Source: a virus
IMG/VR virus record: IMGVR_UViG_3300020203_000106
Location: 1-22,358 of that record
Direction: 5' to 3' (one strand)
Length of the DNA stretch: 22,358 nucleotides
Shown: piece by piece, positions 11,131 to 22,348 of the stretch
Layout of the letters: each line of letters opens with the position of its first letter
How positions within the stretch are numbered: the first letter of the stretch is position 1
Made by a program: the position numbers and the translations under genes
Notes under the pieces: generated by a model
What the model saw: only the letters and a program-made list of their open reading frames with translations
Databases searched by the model: none
Told to the model about the DNA's origin: nothing

Positions 11131-12662
11131 TATTCCACAGCCTCCCAAGGGGCGCCATTAACGCTTTTAATCCTTTCACCCTTAGCATTTTTGGCAAATC
11201 TTGTACCGTCTTGGGCACCGTCTTGGGCACCAGCGTTGGAACCGGCTGGGGCACCAGCTTTGGCAATGGTCGAATCAAACAGCGAAAGGAAGGACGAAAT
11301 GGAGCTATCAATCTGTTTGGCAGAAGAATTAGGGTTCGCTACAATTGATACGAGTAGTTCCAATTCCTTTGGTGTATCAGCAAGACGGGCGGCGTCCAAG
11401 CCGGGCAGGGTGCGCAACGCTTGCACAAGCGGAACAGTCGCAGACCTAATGTCCTGTAGCGCCGTGAAACGATCCGGAAACATAGCGGCATAAGCGGCGG
11501 CAACACCTGGGTCTTCCATACCACCGGGAGCAGCCATAGCAGCAGATATGGCACGCTCGGTGAAATTAAGTTCTTTGCCTCCACGAACGGCCCCGGCCTG
11601 TTTTGCCCTACCTAAAGCTGACTTAAAATTCTCTACGTAACTCTTGACAACTGCCGGGTCAGAGAATCCGCCCGTTTTACCTTCGGAACCGGAACCCTTG
11701 GGCCGGTTGCTACGGTTCGCCTGGCCAGTCCTCGCTTCCAAGAGGGAAATCTCCGCACGTTCCTTATCGGTAAGATCTTGGACTGGCGACTCAATCCATT
11801 TACCATCATTCATGTCATAGAGACCGCCGCCAACACTAAGATAACGATCCTTGCCGGACAGTGCACCACCCCCACCAACCATTGCAGAAAGAGCAGGAAT
11901 CCCACCTTGGTTATACGCATCCATTTGACTTTGAGTGAAAGTGTCTGGATTTTGTTCCAAGAACTTCTTCACTGCCTGTTCTTTATTCCCGGGATTGGAT
12001 TGAATTATTGATTGAAGCGCCTGAACAGCGCGGCCTGCACCGACAAGCTTTTCGTTGTCTCGTTTAAAATTCTGATTCTCAATAACATTGCCGGTTTCTG
12101 GATCAATTCTTGCTACGTCAGCAAAGTTTCCACCTGCAATCGCATCGTCAAGAGATTTTTGACGGCCTTGGTTATAGGTATTTTTATCGACACCCTGAAC
12201 TCTTGCTGCAGAATCTGGGTCAAGACGCTTTATTGCCTCAACGTCGCCGGTCGCCAGTGCGCGACGAAGCTGCTCCGGCGCAACGGAATCATTATAGTCA
12301 CTCTCCATCTGCTGAACGGAGTTGAGGCCCATGAGGGCACGGCCAATATTTGCGAACCCGTCCGCTGCGTCACCGCGAGTCCCACCCTTCGGAACGAAAC
12401 CCATAAGACCCGAGAAAGCACGTCCAGCTTTTGATCCAAACGATTCAGGAGCGACAGGGCCAACCGGCCTGTTGGAAGGGCCAACCGGCCTGCTGGAAGG
12501 GCTAACCGGCCTGCTGGAATGGCTAACCGACCTGTTGAGGGAAACAGGTTGCTTGTTTCCGGAGCCGGTATGGTTCTTTGACGGGCTCGCCTCTTTTGGA
12601 GAGCCGCTACTCTGCTTATTCCGGTTTCTGACAGTACCGATAAGATAATCTGGAAAGCTCAT
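11130..12662 (-). CDS. Putative ejection (internal virion) protein, 510 residues
   Basis: This is a soluble-looking, Ala/Asp/Gln-rich protein. Residues 10-75 are low-complexity Ser/Pro/Asn/Lys and hold four heptapeptides of the form RPVxPSx (44-71). Next comes a helical region with ANIGRALMGLNSVQQMESDY, a stretch rich in DPxT/DPDS motifs (145-195), and a C-terminal region with a small GAQDGAQDG repeat. Its length and place match P22 gp20 (471 residues), a DNA-injection protein, but I cannot point to diagnostic motifs. It is the middle gene of three likely ejection proteins and overlaps the next gene by one base. Confidence 0.45.
   Translation of the reverse strand: MSFPDYLIGTVRNRNKQSSGSPKEASPSKNHTGSGNKQPVSLNRSVSHSSRPVSPSSRPVGPSNRPVGPVAPESFGSKAGRAFSGLMGFVPKGGTRGDAADGFANIGRALMGLNSVQQMESDYNDSVAPEQLRRALATGDVEAIKRLDPDSAARVQGVDKNTYNQGRQKSLDDAIAGGNFADVARIDPETGNVIENQNFKRDNEKLVGAGRAVQALQSIIQSNPGNKEQAVKKFLEQNPDTFTQSQMDAYNQGGIPALSAMVGGGGALSGKDRYLSVGGGLYDMNDGKWIESPVQDLTDKERAEISLLEARTGQANRSNRPKGSGSEGKTGGFSDPAVVKSYVENFKSALGRAKQAGAVRGGKELNFTERAISAAMAAPGGMEDPGVAAAYAAMFPDRFTALQDIRSATVPLVQALRTLPGLDAARLADTPKELELLVSIVANPNSSAKQIDSSISSFLSLFDSTIAKAGAPAGSNAGAQDGAQDGTRFAKNAKGERIKSVNGAPWEAVE
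12462..12545 (-). repeat. Four tandem 21-base repeats inside an ejection-protein gene
   Basis: Units beginning with AACCGGCCTG on the + strand start at 12462, 12483, 12504 and 12525 (the last is AACCGACCTG). The 21-base period encodes a seven-residue repeat, RPVxPSx, on the - strand. The first two repeats transcribed are the most diverged. Such in-frame repeats can vary in number by slippage without breaking the gene. Confidence 0.9.
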
Positions 12663-14089: not shown

Positions 14090-15034
14090 CTATCTACCGT
14101 AAGTAAGAAGGCGACCGCCAGTCATGTTTCCTGATCCGCTATTAGATACAAAACGGATAGCGTCGATAGGAGATGTTGAGCCAACAAACAGGTAATTATC
14201 GCTATTTGAGCCCGATATGATTTTAGGTCCGGTTAGCTTGCAGCCGAACACTGTCTGCATACCTGAGCGGGCCGCGCTAGAGGCAGTTGTATGCAGGTTT
14301 ACGTTCGGCTCCGGATCGGTGGCGCCGCTGCCCACAAACCTTGTGTAATCTGAAGCTCCACTAAAGAAAGTTGCGCCATTATCAACGCTTACGACAAGCG
14401 CTGTTGCGGCTGAAACTGATCTTGTCATGTCAATGCACACGACCATTATATCATCGTATGCAGAAAGGCCGGTAACAGTGCGCGTTGCAATAGGAGAGGC
14501 GACAGTAAAGTCCTCTACGAGAACCCAAGCCCCGCCGCCGCCGCCTCCGGGGATAGTGACAAGAGCCTTGTTTCCGCCTGCGTTAGTTACAAGAACGCCT
14601 GCGCCAGCGAAGTTCAGGGCTGTTGCTGCTGCAACTATGCTTGTGCCCTCATCCTCTACCAGGATGCTGCCGCCTGATCCGTTGGCGGCTGATGTTAGCC
14701 TACCCTTGGCGTCTACTGTGATATTGGATGATGTATATGAACCGGGACTAACAGCGGTATCAGCAAGTGATAGAGTTATGTTACCAGCGCTCAAGGCTGC
14801 AGGAAGCGGTAGAATCTGGCCTGCTGTGCCACCGATGGTGCGAGCAAGTAGGGCCGCAAGGGCTCCGTCTACCGTGTTTATATCATTCTGAACTTTAACA
14901 ACGGATTGCACAAGGTCCACGAGATTGCGCCATTGCCGCGCGAAAAAGTCTGTTGCCCTGCCGCTTTTGTCTGTGATTTCAGCGTAAGCAATAGGGCCAA
15001 TCCGCTTTTCATTAGGGGTTGGAGGAGTGGCCAT
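14090..15034 (-). CDS. Tail fibre-like protein, 314 residues
   Basis: This is a modular, beta-rich protein typical of phage fibres. A helical N-terminal part (25-65, FFARQWRNLVDLVQSVVKVQ onward) may trimerise or attach it to the tail. Then come a short fibre motif PGSYTSSNITVDAKGRLTSA (97-116), a VEDEGTSIVAAATALNFAG segment (126-144), a six-glycine linker (163-168), and a C-terminal beta domain from about 170 that may be the receptor-binding head. It lies directly after the second tail-hub piece and overlaps it by one base (TAATG, with GGGGG before it), so it is probably made with the hub. No enzymatic motif is visible. Confidence 0.65.
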   Translation of the reverse strand: MATPPTPNEKRIGPIAYAEITDKSGRATDFFARQWRNLVDLVQSVVKVQNDINTVDGALAALLARTIGGTAGQILPLPAALSAGNITLSLADTAVSPGSYTSSNITVDAKGRLTSAANGSGGSILVEDEGTSIVAAATALNFAGAGVLVTNAGGNKALVTIPGGGGGGAWVLVEDFTVASPIATRTVTGLSAYDDIMVVCIDMTRSVSAATALVVSVDNGATFFSGASDYTRFVGSGATDPEPNVNLHTTASSAARSGMQTVFGCKLTGPKIISGSNSDNYLFVGSTSPIDAIRFVSNSGSGNMTGGRLLTYGR

Positions 15035-15831
15035 TAGCTATCCCCCAGCAGGACCTGCAGGGTTTGAATACGGCGCAAAGAGCCCTCATCCTGAATCTGG
15101 TAAACACGGCCCGGCGATGTGACGGACCCAAGGTCATAGAACATGACGTTGGCGTTCCGAACACCCGGAACCGTGCTGACTGTCTGGTTAGCGGACCACG
15201 TTGAGCCTTCATCATCGGAATAGCGCAGATTTACGTTGCCGCCACGTCTGCCAATCGAACCGAAAAGCTGTACCTCCGGATTAGAAATAAAACCACGTTC
15301 CTGACTTTCGAGACGGCCCGTCGAAATGAACGTATTGGTCCTGAAGCTATCATCAAAAATAGATTCAGGGTTCACAATGTTCAGGGCGTTGCCAAACATG
15401 GTGGAGGCATAATACTTGTCATTCCACCGGACATGGAACTGAGCGTTCCAGAAAGGAAAGTCCGCTGTTCTCCATTCCGTCCATTGGCTGGTCATCAGGT
15501 CATATACAAATGTGCCACGGCCCCGGATATGAATACCGTAGAAAACGTGTCCATCAATGTCATACGGGAAAGCATTAATTGCCAATGGCTGCTCCGGAAA
15601 CACTCCGGTAGCCCCAACAATAACAACTTCCTCCTCATGAACTCTTATCACGGTGCCGAACCCCAAATCGGTTCCAATGAAGACCGAATGTTCGTTCTGG
15701 ACAAAGATGTATTCCGCAACCAAACCGCCAACAGAAACGACATTGAAATCAGATACACGGATAGCGCCAATGCCGCCCATGACTGACGTAACATTACCGT
15801 CTGAAACCCTGATGGTGTCTGAGGCTGCCAC
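15034..15831 (-). CDS. C-terminal half of a split gp10-like tail hub protein
   Basis: From about residue 84 this 265-residue protein matches the second half of P22 gp10-type tail hub (phage stabilisation) proteins: INAFPYDIDGHVFYGIHIRG, then GTFVYDLMTSQWTEWRT, LRYSDDEGSTWS and FYDLGSVTSPGRVYQI. Residues 1-80 are different: four short beta repeats of the type I-R-V-x-D-x-N-V-x-S-V (starting near 7, 24, 42 and 62). The start is a GTG two bases after the stop of the LamG gene; AGGA lies 10 bases upstream. The missing N-terminal half of the hub is encoded about 2.1 kb upstream at 19197-17974. The two halves minus the extra domains total about 475 residues, close to the 472 of P22 gp10. Confidence 0.6.
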   Translation of the reverse strand: MAASDTIRVSDGNVTSVMGGIGAIRVSDFNVVSVGGLVAEYIFVQNEHSVFIGTDLGFGTVIRVHEEEVVIVGATGVFPEQPLAINAFPYDIDGHVFYGIHIRGRGTFVYDLMTSQWTEWRTADFPFWNAQFHVRWNDKYYASTMFGNALNIVNPESIFDDSFRTNTFISTGRLESQERGFISNPEVQLFGSIGRRGGNVNLRYSDDEGSTWSANQTVSTVPGVRNANVMFYDLGSVTSPGRVYQIQDEGSLRRIQTLQVLLGDS

Positions 15832-15835
15832 ACTA

Positions 15836-17977
15836 CTACGTTGTCCTGTTTACTCTGACTTTGCTACCTAGCATTGCTGTAGTAGTCCACGCAACGCCGC
15901 CATTGGAGCTAAAAAGGTCAATCTGCCAGGATGGTGTTGCAGACGGTGAAGTATCTGCACCATTGCTCACCGCAAGGGCTGAGTCAACAAAGCCGGGCTG
16001 AACTGTAGCGCCACCTGTGCCAAAGACAGAGCGCCGCGTGAACAGTGACACAGAGTCTATGCGAGTGATGCCGCGAGGAATACGCTCAAGCCCATATTCG
16101 CTGGCAACTGGAATATTAAGGCCGCCCGTGAGTGTTCCGGCTCCGGAAATGACTGCCCCGGTTACTGTAGTCGTGAAGACAAGGGCGTTACCAGCAGTAC
16201 CGGGAAGAACGGCGACCATGCGTCCGATTGCGCCCGGAAGCGGCTCTCCTGAGCAGTCAGGGTTGATTACAGTTCCGGTGCCGTAGAGTGTTCCAATACC
16301 GGGACCAAAGTTGATCGCCGCAAGAAGGTTACTCATGGTAGCGTCTGTGTCAACACCAATCAGAATATCATTCGCGGCTGCAAGCGCTGTGCGGAAACGG
16401 TAGGTTGTCGGTCCTACTCTCACGTTCTCATCGTTCAGCGGATTGGCCGTCAGCTCGAATGTGCCGCTGGCTGAAGTTAGCTGTGCGAATACAAACGTGT
16501 CATCACGGCCACTCTTGTCTATAGACTGGAAGCCAAAGAAGCCATCATCCGTCACAAGAGCGGTTGCGATTCCGCGAATACTGACGATCCTGCCAGCGCT
16601 GGACTGGTCGATTGTAAAGCCATTATCCCATCCAATTAGAAGTTGGACGCTGGCAAAACTTGGGTCTCCCGCAACATCACGTGGGAAAGCAGTAGTAATA
16701 GGCGTGTATTCGGCGATGTAGCGGCCAACTCCTACCGTAAACCTGGCCTCATCCATCCAGCCACGGAAAGAATCAGTAAGGGTTGAAGTACCGCTTTGGA
16801 CTGCAGAGACCGACATTACGGAAGTGGCATTAAAGTATGTGGCACTGTCAGCAATGGCCGGGCCAACGCGCACGCCATCAATGAACAGACGATTGAAGCC
16901 TCCGGTGCGCGACACGGCTATACTGTATTTCCGCCAACGGACCGGGCTAAACGGGAAGTCATGGACAACGACTACCGTTCCGGTCGTGCCATCCGTAGAG
17001 TATTCAAATCCGAGGAACGTGTTGCCGCCAGACTCGTACAGGAACAGGCGCCATGAACGCTGGTCTGTCCCGCTTCTCCACTTGGCCATAAGGGTTTGGG
17101 TAGCGCCAGCAGTTGGAACTGTATCCCACCGGAAGTTGCCTTCTGCAGTAAAGGCGCCAGACCCAACTTCAAGGCCAGCAGAGTCGGGAACCGAAAAGCC
17201 TTCATCACCCGACAGGAGCGATTGACCAACACCATTATTAAACGTGCGGCGGGCCACATAAGGCCATTGGGCAGCAGAAGAATCAGAGTTAGGGCGAAGC
17301 AGGTAATTGGCTACACCGCCCGTAGGATACCATGTATTCTGGAAGGCAGTTGCTGTGCTTTTGACGGAAAGGTCAGTAAAGTAGAAATCCTTTCCAGCAA
17401 CAGCGACACCGCTGTTCTGGCCGCGTGGAACGATGATAGCAATAGTTCCGGGGATGACAAGAGCACTTACACTGAGTAGTGTAATACCTGCCGCGTCCCT
17501 GATTTGAACCACCCCGCTACCATTGCCCATAAGAACACGAAATTCCAAGAACTTCCATTCTCCGGAAGTTATGATAATATCTGTAGTTTCAGCAATGACT
17601 GTTCCTGATGAGTTACGGAAAGCAATACGTCCGGTTGGCTCGACATTGAAATAGCACAACACCAAGTTACTTGAGTCATGCAGGCGAATTTGAACAAGGT
17701 TTGACACAGACGGAAGGGCTGGAAGGTAAAGAGCTATTGCAAGGAATATCTCGCCAATAGCAGACCCCTGAATGTTGCCGCGAAGGTCTCCGGTGGTTCC
17801 GATGGTATCAATATAGAAAGCTTTCTGTCCGGTGCGGGCCCCAAAGGATGGGATTACAACCTGAGCGTTGCCGGAAGCGGGTCCGGTTGGCACCGCCGCC
17901 CAAGGGCCAAGCATACCGTTTACTTCGCCCTCACCCACTACATAGCGGTCAGCAGCATCAACAAAAACCAAGCTCAT
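15836..17977 (-). CDS. LamG/lectin-like tail protein inserted between two hub genes, 713 residues
   Basis: This is a large beta-rich virion protein, probably exposed on the tail for binding sugars or the cell surface. Residues 1-215 look like one jelly-roll lectin domain. Residues 235-435 are a second, clearer concanavalin A/LamG domain ending in the typical WMDEARFTVGVGRYIAEYTP (407-426). Residues about 507-622 form a separate module (ENVRVGPTTYRFR, then LIGVDTDATMSNLLAAIN and YGTGT) that also occurs inside the upstream hub piece. The last 90 residues are unassigned. The ATG overlaps the upstream stop (ATGA), with GAGG about 9 bases before it. Sitting between the two halves of the hub, it probably attaches to that structure. 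Confidence 0.65.
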   Translation of the reverse strand: MSLVFVDAADRYVVGEGEVNGMLGPWAAVPTGPASGNAQVVIPSFGARTGQKAFYIDTIGTTGDLRGNIQGSAIGEIFLAIALYLPALPSVSNLVQIRLHDSSNLVLCYFNVEPTGRIAFRNSSGTVIAETTDIIITSGEWKFLEFRVLMGNGSGVVQIRDAAGITLLSVSALVIPGTIAIIVPRGQNSGVAVAGKDFYFTDLSVKSTATAFQNTWYPTGGVANYLLRPNSDSSAAQWPYVARRTFNNGVGQSLLSGDEGFSVPDSAGLEVGSGAFTAEGNFRWDTVPTAGATQTLMAKWRSGTDQRSWRLFLYESGGNTFLGFEYSTDGTTGTVVVVHDFPFSPVRWRKYSIAVSRTGGFNRLFIDGVRVGPAIADSATYFNATSVMSVSAVQSGTSTLTDSFRGWMDEARFTVGVGRYIAEYTPITTAFPRDVAGDPSFASVQLLIGWDNGFTIDQSSAGRIVSIRGIATALVTDDGFFGFQSIDKSGRDDTFVFAQLTSASGTFELTANPLNDENVRVGPTTYRFRTALAAANDILIGVDTDATMSNLLAAINFGPGIGTLYGTGTVINPDCSGEPLPGAIGRMVAVLPGTAGNALVFTTTVTGAVISGAGTLTGGLNIPVASEYGLERIPRGITRIDSVSLFTRRSVFGTGGATVQPGFVDSALAVSNGADTSPSATPSWQIDLFSSNGGVAWTTTAMLGSKVRVNRTT

Positions 17978-19197
17978 GTAACGGTCCTCAAGCGAATTTC
18001 TTCTTCAATGTTATGGGGCGTCAGGCGTTGGCCAGAATTATCGCGTCCGATCCCCTTATCGTCGATGAATATCACACGATCCTCAAGAACCAAAGCAGTT
18101 CCCGGGATAATTCCATAACTCATTTGACGGCCCTGGATTGGGGCGAATGGTGTATCCGGGTCGCCTGTAGCGCTGAATGGCTCTATCGTGGAGCGACCAA
18201 GAGCCCAGAATATAGAGCCAACGGTCACAACCTGAAGCACTTCATCCGGCTCGGATTCAGCCTCGAAGAATACCTCTACCCAGTATTCAGCAGGACGGAT
18301 TGCATACATACGCTGGCTGGCGGCAACAGAAATAATCACATATGCAGAAACGATTGTGACGGAAACCGCTGATTGAGACCCACCCTCCGGAACAGGGACG
18401 GGGATAAGAAGGTGAAGGCCACCGTTGGCAAGTGTACCACCGCCCCATGTAAGGTTGGCGGAAGTCTCTGTTGTGACAATCGAATCACCTGCCACACCCG
18501 CAACAATTGCTTGAACGGAAAGGCGGACGCCAGCAACACGACGCACTTCTACGTTAGGGTTTGCGATCAGGGCTGAGGAATAGGTTCCACCCGGAGTCCC
18601 TGTTGCACCGATTGCCGCACCAAGGTTCTGAAGCGAACCAAGAGTTGTCAGACCGAGAAGCACAAGCCACGGATTCGCAATCGTTCCAGCCGGGCTTCCA
18701 GCGTTTACGCCAGAAGCAACAAACTGATAGTAAACAGAATCAACGCGCACCACATCGGTAGCAACCGGATTGGCAGTTGCGTCAAGGTTTCCAACCGCCT
18801 TGCTAAGCCCCTCATAGTAGAAAAGCGTGTTTCCGTCCGCAAGCCATAGACGGGCGACACCGGGAGAGGCTTGATATGTCATGGAAACCGGGCCGGGATT
18901 TGAGTTCATGGCCCCGACAATCGGTATGGAAGTAGTTCCATTCCAACGAAATAGCTGATTACCAGAGGCAACAAAAAGGTCACCACCCAGAAACCCCGGC
19001 TGCGAGAAGTTCCCCCGCATTGGACCATTACCGAACGTGCGGAAGAAGTCTGTTCCCGGACGGGAAACAAGGGCTGTATCGTCAATAGTTGAAGACGGAT
19101 CACCCTCGAAGAATCGGTTCAGCAATTGCAGTTCAACACTGCCGGTGTAGTCCCGAGTGTATGTGCTGCGAGTAAGGGAAACCTTCTCTTTGGGCAT
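17974..19197 (-). CDS. N-terminal half of a split gp10-like tail hub, with an extra inserted domain
   Basis: This 407-residue protein resembles the first half of P22 gp10-type hubs. It has SRPGTDFFRTFGNGPMRG (45-62), beta-propeller-like strands (GGDLFVASGNQLFRWNGT), and, after an insertion, GSIFWALGRSTIEPFSATGD (327-346), VIFIDDKGIGR (375-385) and RLTPHNIEEEIR (391-402). Residues about 145-266 (VVRVDSVYYQF, then LGLTTLGSLQNLGAAIGATG and TTETSANLTWGGGTL) are a separate module that resembles one in the adjacent LamG protein. The protein ends where an intact hub would continue; the continuation is encoded at 15831-15034. The ATG overlaps the gp4-like stop (TAATG). In P22, gp4 and gp10 also adjoin and close the portal. 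Confidence 0.6.
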   Translation of the reverse strand: MPKEKVSLTRSTYTRDYTGSVELQLLNRFFEGDPSSTIDDTALVSRPGTDFFRTFGNGPMRGNFSQPGFLGGDLFVASGNQLFRWNGTTSIPIVGAMNSNPGPVSMTYQASPGVARLWLADGNTLFYYEGLSKAVGNLDATANPVATDVVRVDSVYYQFVASGVNAGSPAGTIANPWLVLLGLTTLGSLQNLGAAIGATGTPGGTYSSALIANPNVEVRRVAGVRLSVQAIVAGVAGDSIVTTETSANLTWGGGTLANGGLHLLIPVPVPEGGSQSAVSVTIVSAYVIISVAASQRMYAIRPAEYWVEVFFEAESEPDEVLQVVTVGSIFWALGRSTIEPFSATGDPDTPFAPIQGRQMSYGIIPGTALVLEDRVIFIDDKGIGRDNSGQRLTPHNIEEEIRLRTVT

Positions 19198-19919
19198 TAG
19201 TAGTAGGCGCCCGTATCGCTATTTGTTGCAAGGCTGGAATCCCATAGAATGTCAGGATCAGCGCTACTGTTTTCTGACAAATAGCGTCCAGTGTGGCGGG
19301 ACCGGATAGACTGGTAAATCTCTGACGTAATTGGGCTTATTTCCTTACCGTACCGAGGATTGAGGCGCATCGCCAGTTCAATGACAAACATATCATCAAA
19401 CTCATCCGGGAATGGGATGCTTTGCAGTTGCGTCAAGGGGGAGACACGTATCCATTCAGCAAGGTCACGCCGGAACATAATGCTGGTGTTCTCAAGGCTG
19501 GTGGAGAGAACAAGAACAGAGTTTCCAAGGATATTATTTCCATTGCCATTCAATGTCAGCGGGAAAGAGGCCAGGCTACCCAGAACGTCAATGAATGTAA
19601 GTCTTGCGCCATCACCCGGCGACGGTGGAAGCAGGAGGGTTCTGGCAGCGTCCGACAAAAGATTGACGTAACAATTCTGTGGAACGGCCCGATTGTCCAT
19701 GAATGGAGTAAAGTTCTTCAGCGTAATGCCGCGCTGCTCTCGCACTGCCGCTACGTTACCCAGCCAGATTGTCTGCACTGCAGGTCGGATATGACGTGAA
19801 ATAATGCCATTCAGGATTGGCAGGGCTTCAGCAATCTGCGCATCAGACGGGGGGCGGTTGATATCCAGAATCTGGCTCTCCCGGAATGACCGGGTAATAA
19901 TATCAGAGAGAGTTGACAT
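19197..19919 (-). CDS. P22 gp4-like tail accessory (head-tail adaptor) protein
   Basis: This 240-residue protein begins MSTLSDIITRSFRESQILDI and has the helical ALPILNGIISRH that marks gp4-type adaptors. Later comes FPLTLNGNGNNILG, then a conserved-looking stretch RRDLAEWIRVSPL and FPDEFDDMFVIELAMRLNPRYG. In P22, gp4 binds below the portal and receives the gp10 hub; here the hub gene starts at the stop codon of this gene, which supports the call. GAAGG lies 8 bases before the ATG. The portal gene must lie further right, outside the window. The family match is from memory of the pattern, not an alignment. Confidence 0.65.
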   Translation of the reverse strand: MSTLSDIITRSFRESQILDINRPPSDAQIAEALPILNGIISRHIRPAVQTIWLGNVAAVREQRGITLKNFTPFMDNRAVPQNCYVNLLSDAARTLLLPPSPGDGARLTFIDVLGSLASFPLTLNGNGNNILGNSVLVLSTSLENTSIMFRRDLAEWIRVSPLTQLQSIPFPDEFDDMFVIELAMRLNPRYGKEISPITSEIYQSIRSRHTGRYLSENSSADPDILWDSSLATNSDTGAYY

Positions 19920-19923
19920 TCAG

Positions 19924-20379
19924 TTAGCCTTCAACATCAGTGTATGTTGTAATTTTATTGTCAAGAGACCCTACATCAATGCCGTATTGTGCGCAACCCA
20001 TACGAAGGGCCGCAACCAAGGCGGCTTTACCTGCTGTGGCACCCATGTCCAGCGCACCTAATGCTATTTCGGAGCCGGACCCAGACGAATATACGTGATC
20101 GCCAGGAACAATCGTGAAACCGCTTGCATCGCAAAGGTAAACCGCTTCTGAAGTAAAGGCTATTCCGAACATATTTTCCGCCTCATCCATATCATATGGA
20201 ATCTCCATGTCGTGCTCTACCCATTCCCGAAAAAGCTTTGCGTCAATAACTGAGCCAGCCATAGCGCCCATTGTTGTTTTTCCGCGATAAATCTTGCAGG
20301 CGGCATAAAGGTGCTTGCCATCAACAGTGGCGGAGCGATCAGCCGCCATTACACCATCACGATAAACGATAATAGTCAT
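19924..20379 (-). CDS. HslV/proteasome-like Ntn-hydrolase
   Basis: This 151-residue protein looks like a small N-terminal-nucleophile protease of the HslV/20S proteasome fold. Removal of Met1 would expose Thr2 as the nucleophile. Asp14 in MAADRSAT (11-18) and Lys29 in CKIYRGKTT (28-36) fit the Asp17/Lys33 pair of proteasomes. AMAGSVIDAKLF (39-50) corresponds to the HslV GFAGGTADAFTLF, and YSSGSGSEIALGAL (97-110) to the GSGG turn. It is shorter than HslV (about 175). Lying among head-tail genes, it may process virion proteins or act on host proteins. Phage proteins of this type exist, but I know of no settled function. GGGG lies 5 bases before the ATG. Confidence 0.7.
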   Translation of the reverse strand: MTIIVYRDGVMAADRSATVDGKHLYAACKIYRGKTTMGAMAGSVIDAKLFREWVEHDMEIPYDMDEAENMFGIAFTSEAVYLCDASGFTIVPGDHVYSSGSGSEIALGALDMGATAGKAALVAALRMGCAQYGIDVGSLDNKITTYTDVEG

Positions 20380-21182: not shown

Positions 21183-21773
21183 TCATATAGGGACAAATCC
21201 TCCATATACTGCCAGACCAGACTGGTCCCATCCGGTCATGGTCTGGGTCGCGGGCATAATCGCCGTTGTGCGGCTCTTGGAAGCCGAGGTTGTTACAGAT
21301 GCATTATGACTAGGCAATGTCGTGTAAATCAGCAGGTCTATACTTTGAAAAGTCAGAAAGTAATTCACGATTTCTAAGGCAGAGGCATCGGTTACGTTGG
21401 AAGACACAGAGACCAGCGCGGATTGGTTTAATGCAAAGTAGTACAGTTGACCGGCGACCAGAGTGACGTTGGTCGTCGTCACCTGGTGCAAGCCGACAAC
21501 CGTACCGGAATCTAAGGCGCAATCGGTCAGTAGTGTTCCGGTTCCGCTATAAATCCCGACAAAGACATTTGCCGCAGTTACGACGCCGCGCACCCAAAAA
21601 ACTCGGTTGATCGTAACATCTGCTCGCGCGACGAACGCGGTCAGATAATCCCGGTTTATAACCCCAACGTTGACAGCAGTGGCGGTGCTCATTCTGCGCA
21701 CACTATACGGAACCAAAGGAAGGTACGGCAGATTGCCTCCCGCTTCTGGAAAAATTGCTTCCCAAGTGCTCAT
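21183..21773 (-). CDS. Beta-rich fibre-like protein, 196 residues
   Basis: This Thr/Val/Ser-rich protein is likely to be a beta-sandwich such as a fibre tip or carbohydrate-binding domain. The middle part VFVGIYSGTGTLLTDCALDS and LVAGQLYYFALN alternates hydrophobic residues in the way of phage receptor-binding heads. The N-terminus (STWEAIFPEAGGNLPYLPLV) may attach it to another virion part. It begins with an ATGA overlap with the preceding gene, so the two are probably subunits of one structure. No enzyme motif is visible. Confidence 0.55.
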   Translation of the reverse strand: MSTWEAIFPEAGGNLPYLPLVPYSVRRMSTATAVNVGVINRDYLTAFVARADVTINRVFWVRGVVTAANVFVGIYSGTGTLLTDCALDSGTVVGLHQVTTTNVTLVAGQLYYFALNQSALVSVSSNVTDASALEIVNYFLTFQSIDLLIYTTLPSHNASVTTSASKSRTTAIMPATQTMTGWDQSGLAVYGGFVPI

Positions 21774-22348
21774 CCTTCAAACGCCTTCCATCCGATTGCC
21801 CCTCCGGCGAACACAAATCCGCCAGAGGTGTTTTTTCTTGATACGGTCATGTTCTCTGCAAGTCCTTCTACTAACTCACCGTTTCTCGCGATTGTCAACA
21901 ACACAAGGTTATGTCCGGTGATGAAACCGACGCGCAAGCCTGTCGCAGGCGAGGCCGGAAGGGTTCCGGTGTGCGTGCTGTTCACATAAACCGGCGGTTC
22001 GTTGTCGCCGAATGAAAAATTACCCGCCGGAGCGCTGGAATTACCGATACCCAGCTCAAGTTCATTAATGGCCGCCTGAACTGTGACAGCACTGATACTG
22101 CCTGCCGGAACATTTGTTACTTCAGAGGCTGTTTGGGGGAAATCCCCAAGGTAGCTCCATGTCGTGCCATTGCTATAGTAAGCACCCTTGTTATGGCGGT
22201 TGACAAGCCAGACGCCTGTTGAAGCAAGAACCCACCAGCGTTCACCAGAGTTTGTTCCATCCGGAGCGGGCAGAGCAGCAAAGTTGGCAACCGTAACAGC
22301 ATCACGTCCTTCATAAAGCTCAATGAAGTTATCATTGGACTTTATCAT
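21770..22348 (-). CDS. Fibre or virion protein, 192 residues; start may lie beyond the window
   Basis: The reading frame stays open to the right edge of the window, so the ATG at 22348 may be internal; no clear ribosome site is visible in the ten bases left. The protein has FAALPAPDGTNSGERWWVLA and NKGAYYSNGTTWSYLGDFP (17-72), a pattern common in phage fibre subunits, then a short helix VQAAINELELG and a beta-rich end. It is probably an attachment or N-terminal fibre subunit, made together with the next gene through an ATGA overlap. The exact role is unknown. Confidence 0.55.
   Translation of the reverse strand: MIKSNDNFIELYEGRDAVTVANFAALPAPDGTNSGERWWVLASTGVWLVNRHNKGAYYSNGTTWSYLGDFPQTASEVTNVPAGSISAVTVQAAINELELGIGNSSAPAGNFSFGDNEPPVYVNSTHTGTLPASPATGLRVGFITGHNLVLLTIARNGELVEGLAENMTVSRKNTSGGFVFAGGAIGWKAFEG

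Follow-up and report, generated by a model that had tools for sequence, protein, structure and literature searches.

A P22 gp10-type tail hub probably divided into two chains around a lectin-type gene

Introduction

In short-tailed phages, the ring formed by gp10-type (nozzle) proteins seals the packaged DNA and opens on infection. The locus described here raises the question of whether such a ring can be built from two chains instead of one. The window, by which we mean the entire stretch of viral DNA analysed (22,358 nucleotides; IMG/VR record IMGVR_UViG_3300020203_000106), was described in a first-pass annotation, made from the sequence alone, as carrying a P22 gp10-like tail hub split in two by a 713-residue LamG gene. 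Three minus-strand open reading frames (ORFs) are present at positions 19197–17974, 17977–15836 and 15831–15034, with strands and ends exactly as that annotation gave them. Their ends overlap or nearly touch, as was also described: an ATGA at 17977–17974 combines the stop codon of the first ORF (hub N half) with the start codon of the second (the LamG-type gene), and 4 nucleotides separate the LamG stop codon from the GTG start of the third (hub C half).

The two halves match complementary parts of one hub family

The N half (17974–19197, minus strand, 407 amino acids) and the C half (15034–15831, minus strand, 265 amino acids) match phrog_578, the ‘head closure Hc3’ or P22 gp10 family, at adjacent and non-overlapping ranges. 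Profile searches place the N half at positions 1–279 of 486 (E = 1e-25) and the C half at positions 291–452 (E = 2.6e-7), and the two jointly cover the family length. These complementary ranges are repeated in the related records L011 and L012 and in further records. When profiles made only from split sequences were aligned with an independent set of fused hubs by hhalign, the N-half profile took columns 2–268 of 479 (probability 99.5) and the C-half profile took columns 222–456 (probability 97.7); a mutual match between the N-half and C-half profiles is absent (probability 0.2).

The motifs listed in the first-pass annotation are all present, with TIEPFSATGD at residues 337–346 and RLTPHNIEEEIR at residues 391–402 of the N half, and GHVFYGI at residues 94–100 and GTFVYD at residues 106–111 of the C half. 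Only the spacing from GTFVYD to the following tryptophan requires correction, from 6 residues to 5. The combined length of the two halves without their extra domains was put earlier at about 475 residues; we obtain about 277 + 187 = 464, which is near the 472 of P22 gp10, as had been proposed, and compares with 442–446 for Pam1 and Pan3.

A gp10-type fold is found for both halves in AlphaFold models of low confidence (mean pLDDT 59 for the N half and 51 for the C half) with low TM-scores. Against 350,542 PDB chains, Foldseek ranks Pan3 (9vyg_M) first, Pam1 (7eeq_1) second and P22 gp10 (8u10) fourth for the N half, and the top six matches of the C half are all gp10-type hub chains, so that the Pan3, Pam1 and P22 hubs are among the leading matches of both halves. 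Seh1 is also among the N-half fold matches. A second aligner (VIA) superposes the N half on P22 gp10 residues 55–293 (Z 15–17) and the C half on residues 281–472 (Z ~9). Because the alignments used for modelling included fused relatives, these fold matches depend in part on the sequence matches.

In a MAFFT alignment, the break separates the RIS-x-H-x-IEE helix from the GH-x-FY strand, and only approximately 10 residues of the linker seen in fused proteins are absent. A count of predicted strands yields a platform segment and propeller blades 1–5 for the N half, and blades 6–7 plus a C-terminal platform domain for the C half. With blades numbered by this count, the cut would lie in the linker that joins predicted blade 5 to blade 6, although its geometry is seen only coarsely because the models are poor and the TM-scores low.

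Each half also carries additional sequence. The N half includes an extra Ig/beta-type domain (18412–18801, minus strand, residues ~133–262) between predicted blades 2 and 3, which is missing from every fused relative aligned. The C half opens with a region of ~78 residues (15598–15831, minus strand) made up of four beta-type ‘IRVSD’ repeats, which is missing from fused gp10s and is less conserved than the remainder of the C half. These repeats matched no convincing known family, and none were found near fused hubs.

The gene between the halves

The ORF between the halves (15836–17977, minus strand) encodes a multi-domain LamG-type protein of 713 amino acids, and a GAGGA at 17985–17989 (minus strand) is its likely ribosome binding site. 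The size and place of this gene are as first annotated, whereas its LamG class is weakly assigned in the window. There the protein matches phrog_38322 and phrog_701, and Laminin_G_3 falls below the Pfam cut-off (no Pfam hit) but above it in the orthologues from L011 and L012. A LamG/concanavalin-like domain is placed at 16673–17221 (minus strand, residues ~253–435). No solved-structure match was found for the protein by sequence.

An Ig/beta-type domain of the same protein (16091–16495, minus strand, residues ~495–629) is related to the extra domain of the N half (18412–18801), with 30–31% identity (blastp within the window, E = 1.7e-7), which would fit the spread of a single decoration domain through the tail module.

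The N-terminal third of the LamG-type protein is its most variable part, and the C-terminal two thirds are more conserved, a pattern that would fit a protein anchored by its C terminus with its N terminus exposed. The protein is a candidate receptor-binding or decorating protein that probably attaches to the hub, perhaps via the repeats at the start of the C half. A role as receptor binder is plausible.

The surrounding tail module

The split hub occupies the order expected of a P22-type head and tail module, in which the adaptor is followed by the hub. A gp4-type adaptor gene (19197–19919, minus strand) lies directly upstream of the N half and matches phrog_31104 and tail families. Its product aligns with the proteins in the upstream adaptor position of Pan3, Pam1, DSL, VvAW1 and ctNMl277 (hhalign, probability 97.4), and the gene adjoins the hub upstream as in Pan3, DSL-LC05 and VvAW1. 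In L011 the order is terminase, portal, coat, adaptor, hub. Directly downstream of the C half, in the gp26 position, is a gene for a needle- or tail-fibre-like protein (14090–15034, minus strand) that matches a tail-fibre phrog; its N-terminal region is conserved and the rest variable, and no solved-structure match was found by sequence.

Several further observations were made on this module and elsewhere in the window. The needle-like protein is 314 amino acids long in the window (14090–15034, minus strand) but 270 in L003 (7306–8118), although these phages are near-identical and their hub halves 100% identical. The adaptor contains an insert (residues ~59–156) that is a tailspike-type domain, and a related stretch occurs again at 21770–22348. 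Just upstream of the adaptor gene is an HslV-family peptidase gene (19924–20379, minus strand; phrog_1040, E = 1.5e-23). Two adjacent plus-strand ORFs at 1048–1512 and 1509–2045 both match phrogs 7964, 5070 and 5353, which suggests that a gene was duplicated in tandem, or that a second gene is split, at 1048–2045.

The split arrangement recurs and is under purifying selection

IMG/VR scans recovered the order adaptor, N half, LamG-type gene, C half in at least four further lineages with 49–71% identity, always as separate ORFs. The arrangement is near-identical in L003 and L004, and N-half identity is 70–71% in L014–L017, 67% in L005, 63% in L012 and 62% in L011; L013 is a truncated case. All relatives of the LamG-type gene found in IMG/VR are located between two hub halves, and no one-ORF fusion of N half, LamG and C half was found among them. 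Every split example is an independently assembled metagenomic contig of an uncultured short-tailed virus of bacteria. No isolate with a split hub was found, and neither half had a relative in two scans of sequenced prokaryote genomes.

All three genes bear signs of constraint. The N half has a dN/dS of about 0.11–0.15, indicating purifying selection, and the same applies to the LamG-type gene (about 0.14–0.20 where dS is unsaturated). For the C half, dS is mostly saturated and pN/pS is 0.27–0.45, with a dN/dS of 0.12 in one unsaturated distant pair. No second phrog_578 copy was found in the window or in relatives of 45.6 kb and 44.5 kb, none of these records being certified complete. Both fragments are therefore under selection without an intact copy in the records searched.

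Fused relatives give the point of comparison. Of the fused hubs fetched from IMG/VR, 80 of 80 are single ORFs (442–513 amino acids), a count that is biased toward fused forms because the scan required the two halves to lie together. The split sequences are monophyletic (support 1.0) in the full-core, N-half and C-half trees, and in the N-half tree their clade is nearest to the Pan3/Pam1 group. No insertion common to the fused relatives was seen at the cut site in those aligned, and the extra residues of the 509–513 amino acid members lie later, in the predicted platform region. The split is most simply explained if the hub gene was opened once, in an ancestor, at a linker joining two blades, and its parts have since been maintained as separately translated chains that would assemble in trans. 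Because the hub is coded as two ORFs, in every lineage of the split clade, it is a variant and not an ordinary member of the otherwise single-chain phrog_578 family.

Evaluation of the two-chain hub and its alternatives

That a gp10-type hub has been split in two, as first proposed, has strong support from profile, fold, synteny and comparison across several lineages. Taken together, we put a probability of roughly 0.85 on the reading that a single ancestral tail hub of the P22 gp10 type (a protein also named nozzle or tubeB) has become two separately translated chains that most likely fold in trans. The N and C halves would be the parts of this hub, each translated on its own from one gene cluster, and would fold together to complete one seven-bladed propeller plus platform. 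The ring would then hold two chains (presumably 6+6) instead of one, and the cut is occupied by a lectin-type gene that has a start codon of its own. Because both halves are under strong purifying selection, gene order is strict and the larger relatives lack an intact copy, we infer that the two proteins most likely reassemble as a two-chain ring.

A more elaborate form of this reading, which we regard as doubtful although worth stating, has three chains in the ring. In it, the lectin-type protein would dock in the space separating blades 5 and 6, with the N half on one side and the C-half repeats on the other, such that what was once a one-piece domain insertion is now three non-covalently joined chains.

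The N half alone might instead form a reduced hub ring, with the C half acting as a structural protein in its own right (a platform or decoration protein, for instance) and the propeller left incomplete. Independent translation of the halves, each with a gained extra domain, would fit such a division of labour. However, the predicted blades of the two halves together give the usual complement (5 + 2 plus platform), short of only ~10 linker residues, and the C half keeps the predicted strands of blades 6–7 in addition to the platform. We therefore consider the reduced ring improbable.

Programmed frameshifting, stop-codon readthrough or protein splicing could in principle yield a single N-LamG-C chain with a very large insertion, as might be imagined from ORF ends that overlap or nearly touch and from LamG relatives that occur only at the hub break. 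However, the frame offsets of N half, LamG and C half differ among lineages (2/1, 1/0, 2/0, 1/1 and 1/2). Each downstream ORF also has its own start, and for the C half a GTG start with an upstream AGGA is present in 6 of the 6 loci compared (in the window at 15844–15847, minus strand, within the 3' end of the LamG-type gene). Varying frame offsets with a retained GTG and AGGA exclude a conserved frameshift or readthrough and point to separate translation. No intein family was matched in the domain and profile scans run. Furthermore, a whole endonuclease gene stands between LamG and the C half in L011. A single chain is thus very unlikely, and we rejected it on the basis of the unconserved frame offsets.

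In L011 only, an HNH-type endonuclease gene (11341–11805; phrog_3322, E = 2.4e-30) lies exactly between the LamG-type gene and the C half. Its presence at the break may be secondary.

A decayed or mis-assembled gene, with a working hub elsewhere in a genome whose missing part could hold one because none of these metagenomic contigs is certified complete, is scarcely credible and was rejected, given the same structure in independently assembled contigs at 49–71% identity under strong purifying selection and the lack of any further phrog_578 match across the window and records as long as 45.6 kb. Recurrent separate ORFs, varied frames, the kept GTG and AGGA, and purifying selection lead us to exclude assembly error, frameshift, intein and pseudogene, and the two-chain hub is the reading carried forward.

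Comparison with known systems

P22 gp10, Sf6 gp8, the Pan3 stabilization protein and the Pam1 needle head protein belong by profile and fold to the same family (phrog_578) as the split hub, and they likewise come immediately after the adaptor in the tail module. They are single chains of 442–472 amino acids, whereas the hub described here comprises two chains encoded around a 713-amino acid lectin-type gene, and adds an inserted domain in its N half and a repeat region in its C half. No published split gp10 or nozzle protein was found in the literature searched, which took in few subscription journals.

In Sec13 and Seh1, an open propeller is closed by a blade that a partner chain contributes. 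These are unrelated eukaryotic proteins that receive one donated blade, and the likeness lies in a propeller closed in trans. Among phage nozzles, T7 gp12 and SU10 gp17 form hexameric seven-bladed propellers plus platform, already open at two points and closed in velcro fashion (PMC6702177, PMC9509320), which makes a further break in the propeller structurally conceivable. The SU10 nozzle has Ig-like domains between blades 2 and 3 (PMC9509320), the same position as predicted here for the extra domain of the N half. However, each of these nozzles is a single chain, uninterrupted from blade 5 to blade 6.

In split phage genes, the break often holds an endonuclease gene (PMC2988022), a pattern echoed by the endonuclease gene beside the hub break in L011. 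In Aeh1 nrdA, phage 25 gene 43A/43B and T4 topoisomerase 60/39, one ancestral protein has likewise become two reassembling chains. These examples are enzymes, mostly split by endonuclease genes, whereas the present case is a virion ring protein divided around a lectin-type gene. If a two-chain hub is true, then a pressure-bearing propeller tolerates a break between two of its blades, these phages offer a ready-made system for hub assembly in trans, and the hub locus provides a route for embedding host-recognition genes. The gp10 hub family is known; what is new is its two-chain form, and not a new kind of machine.
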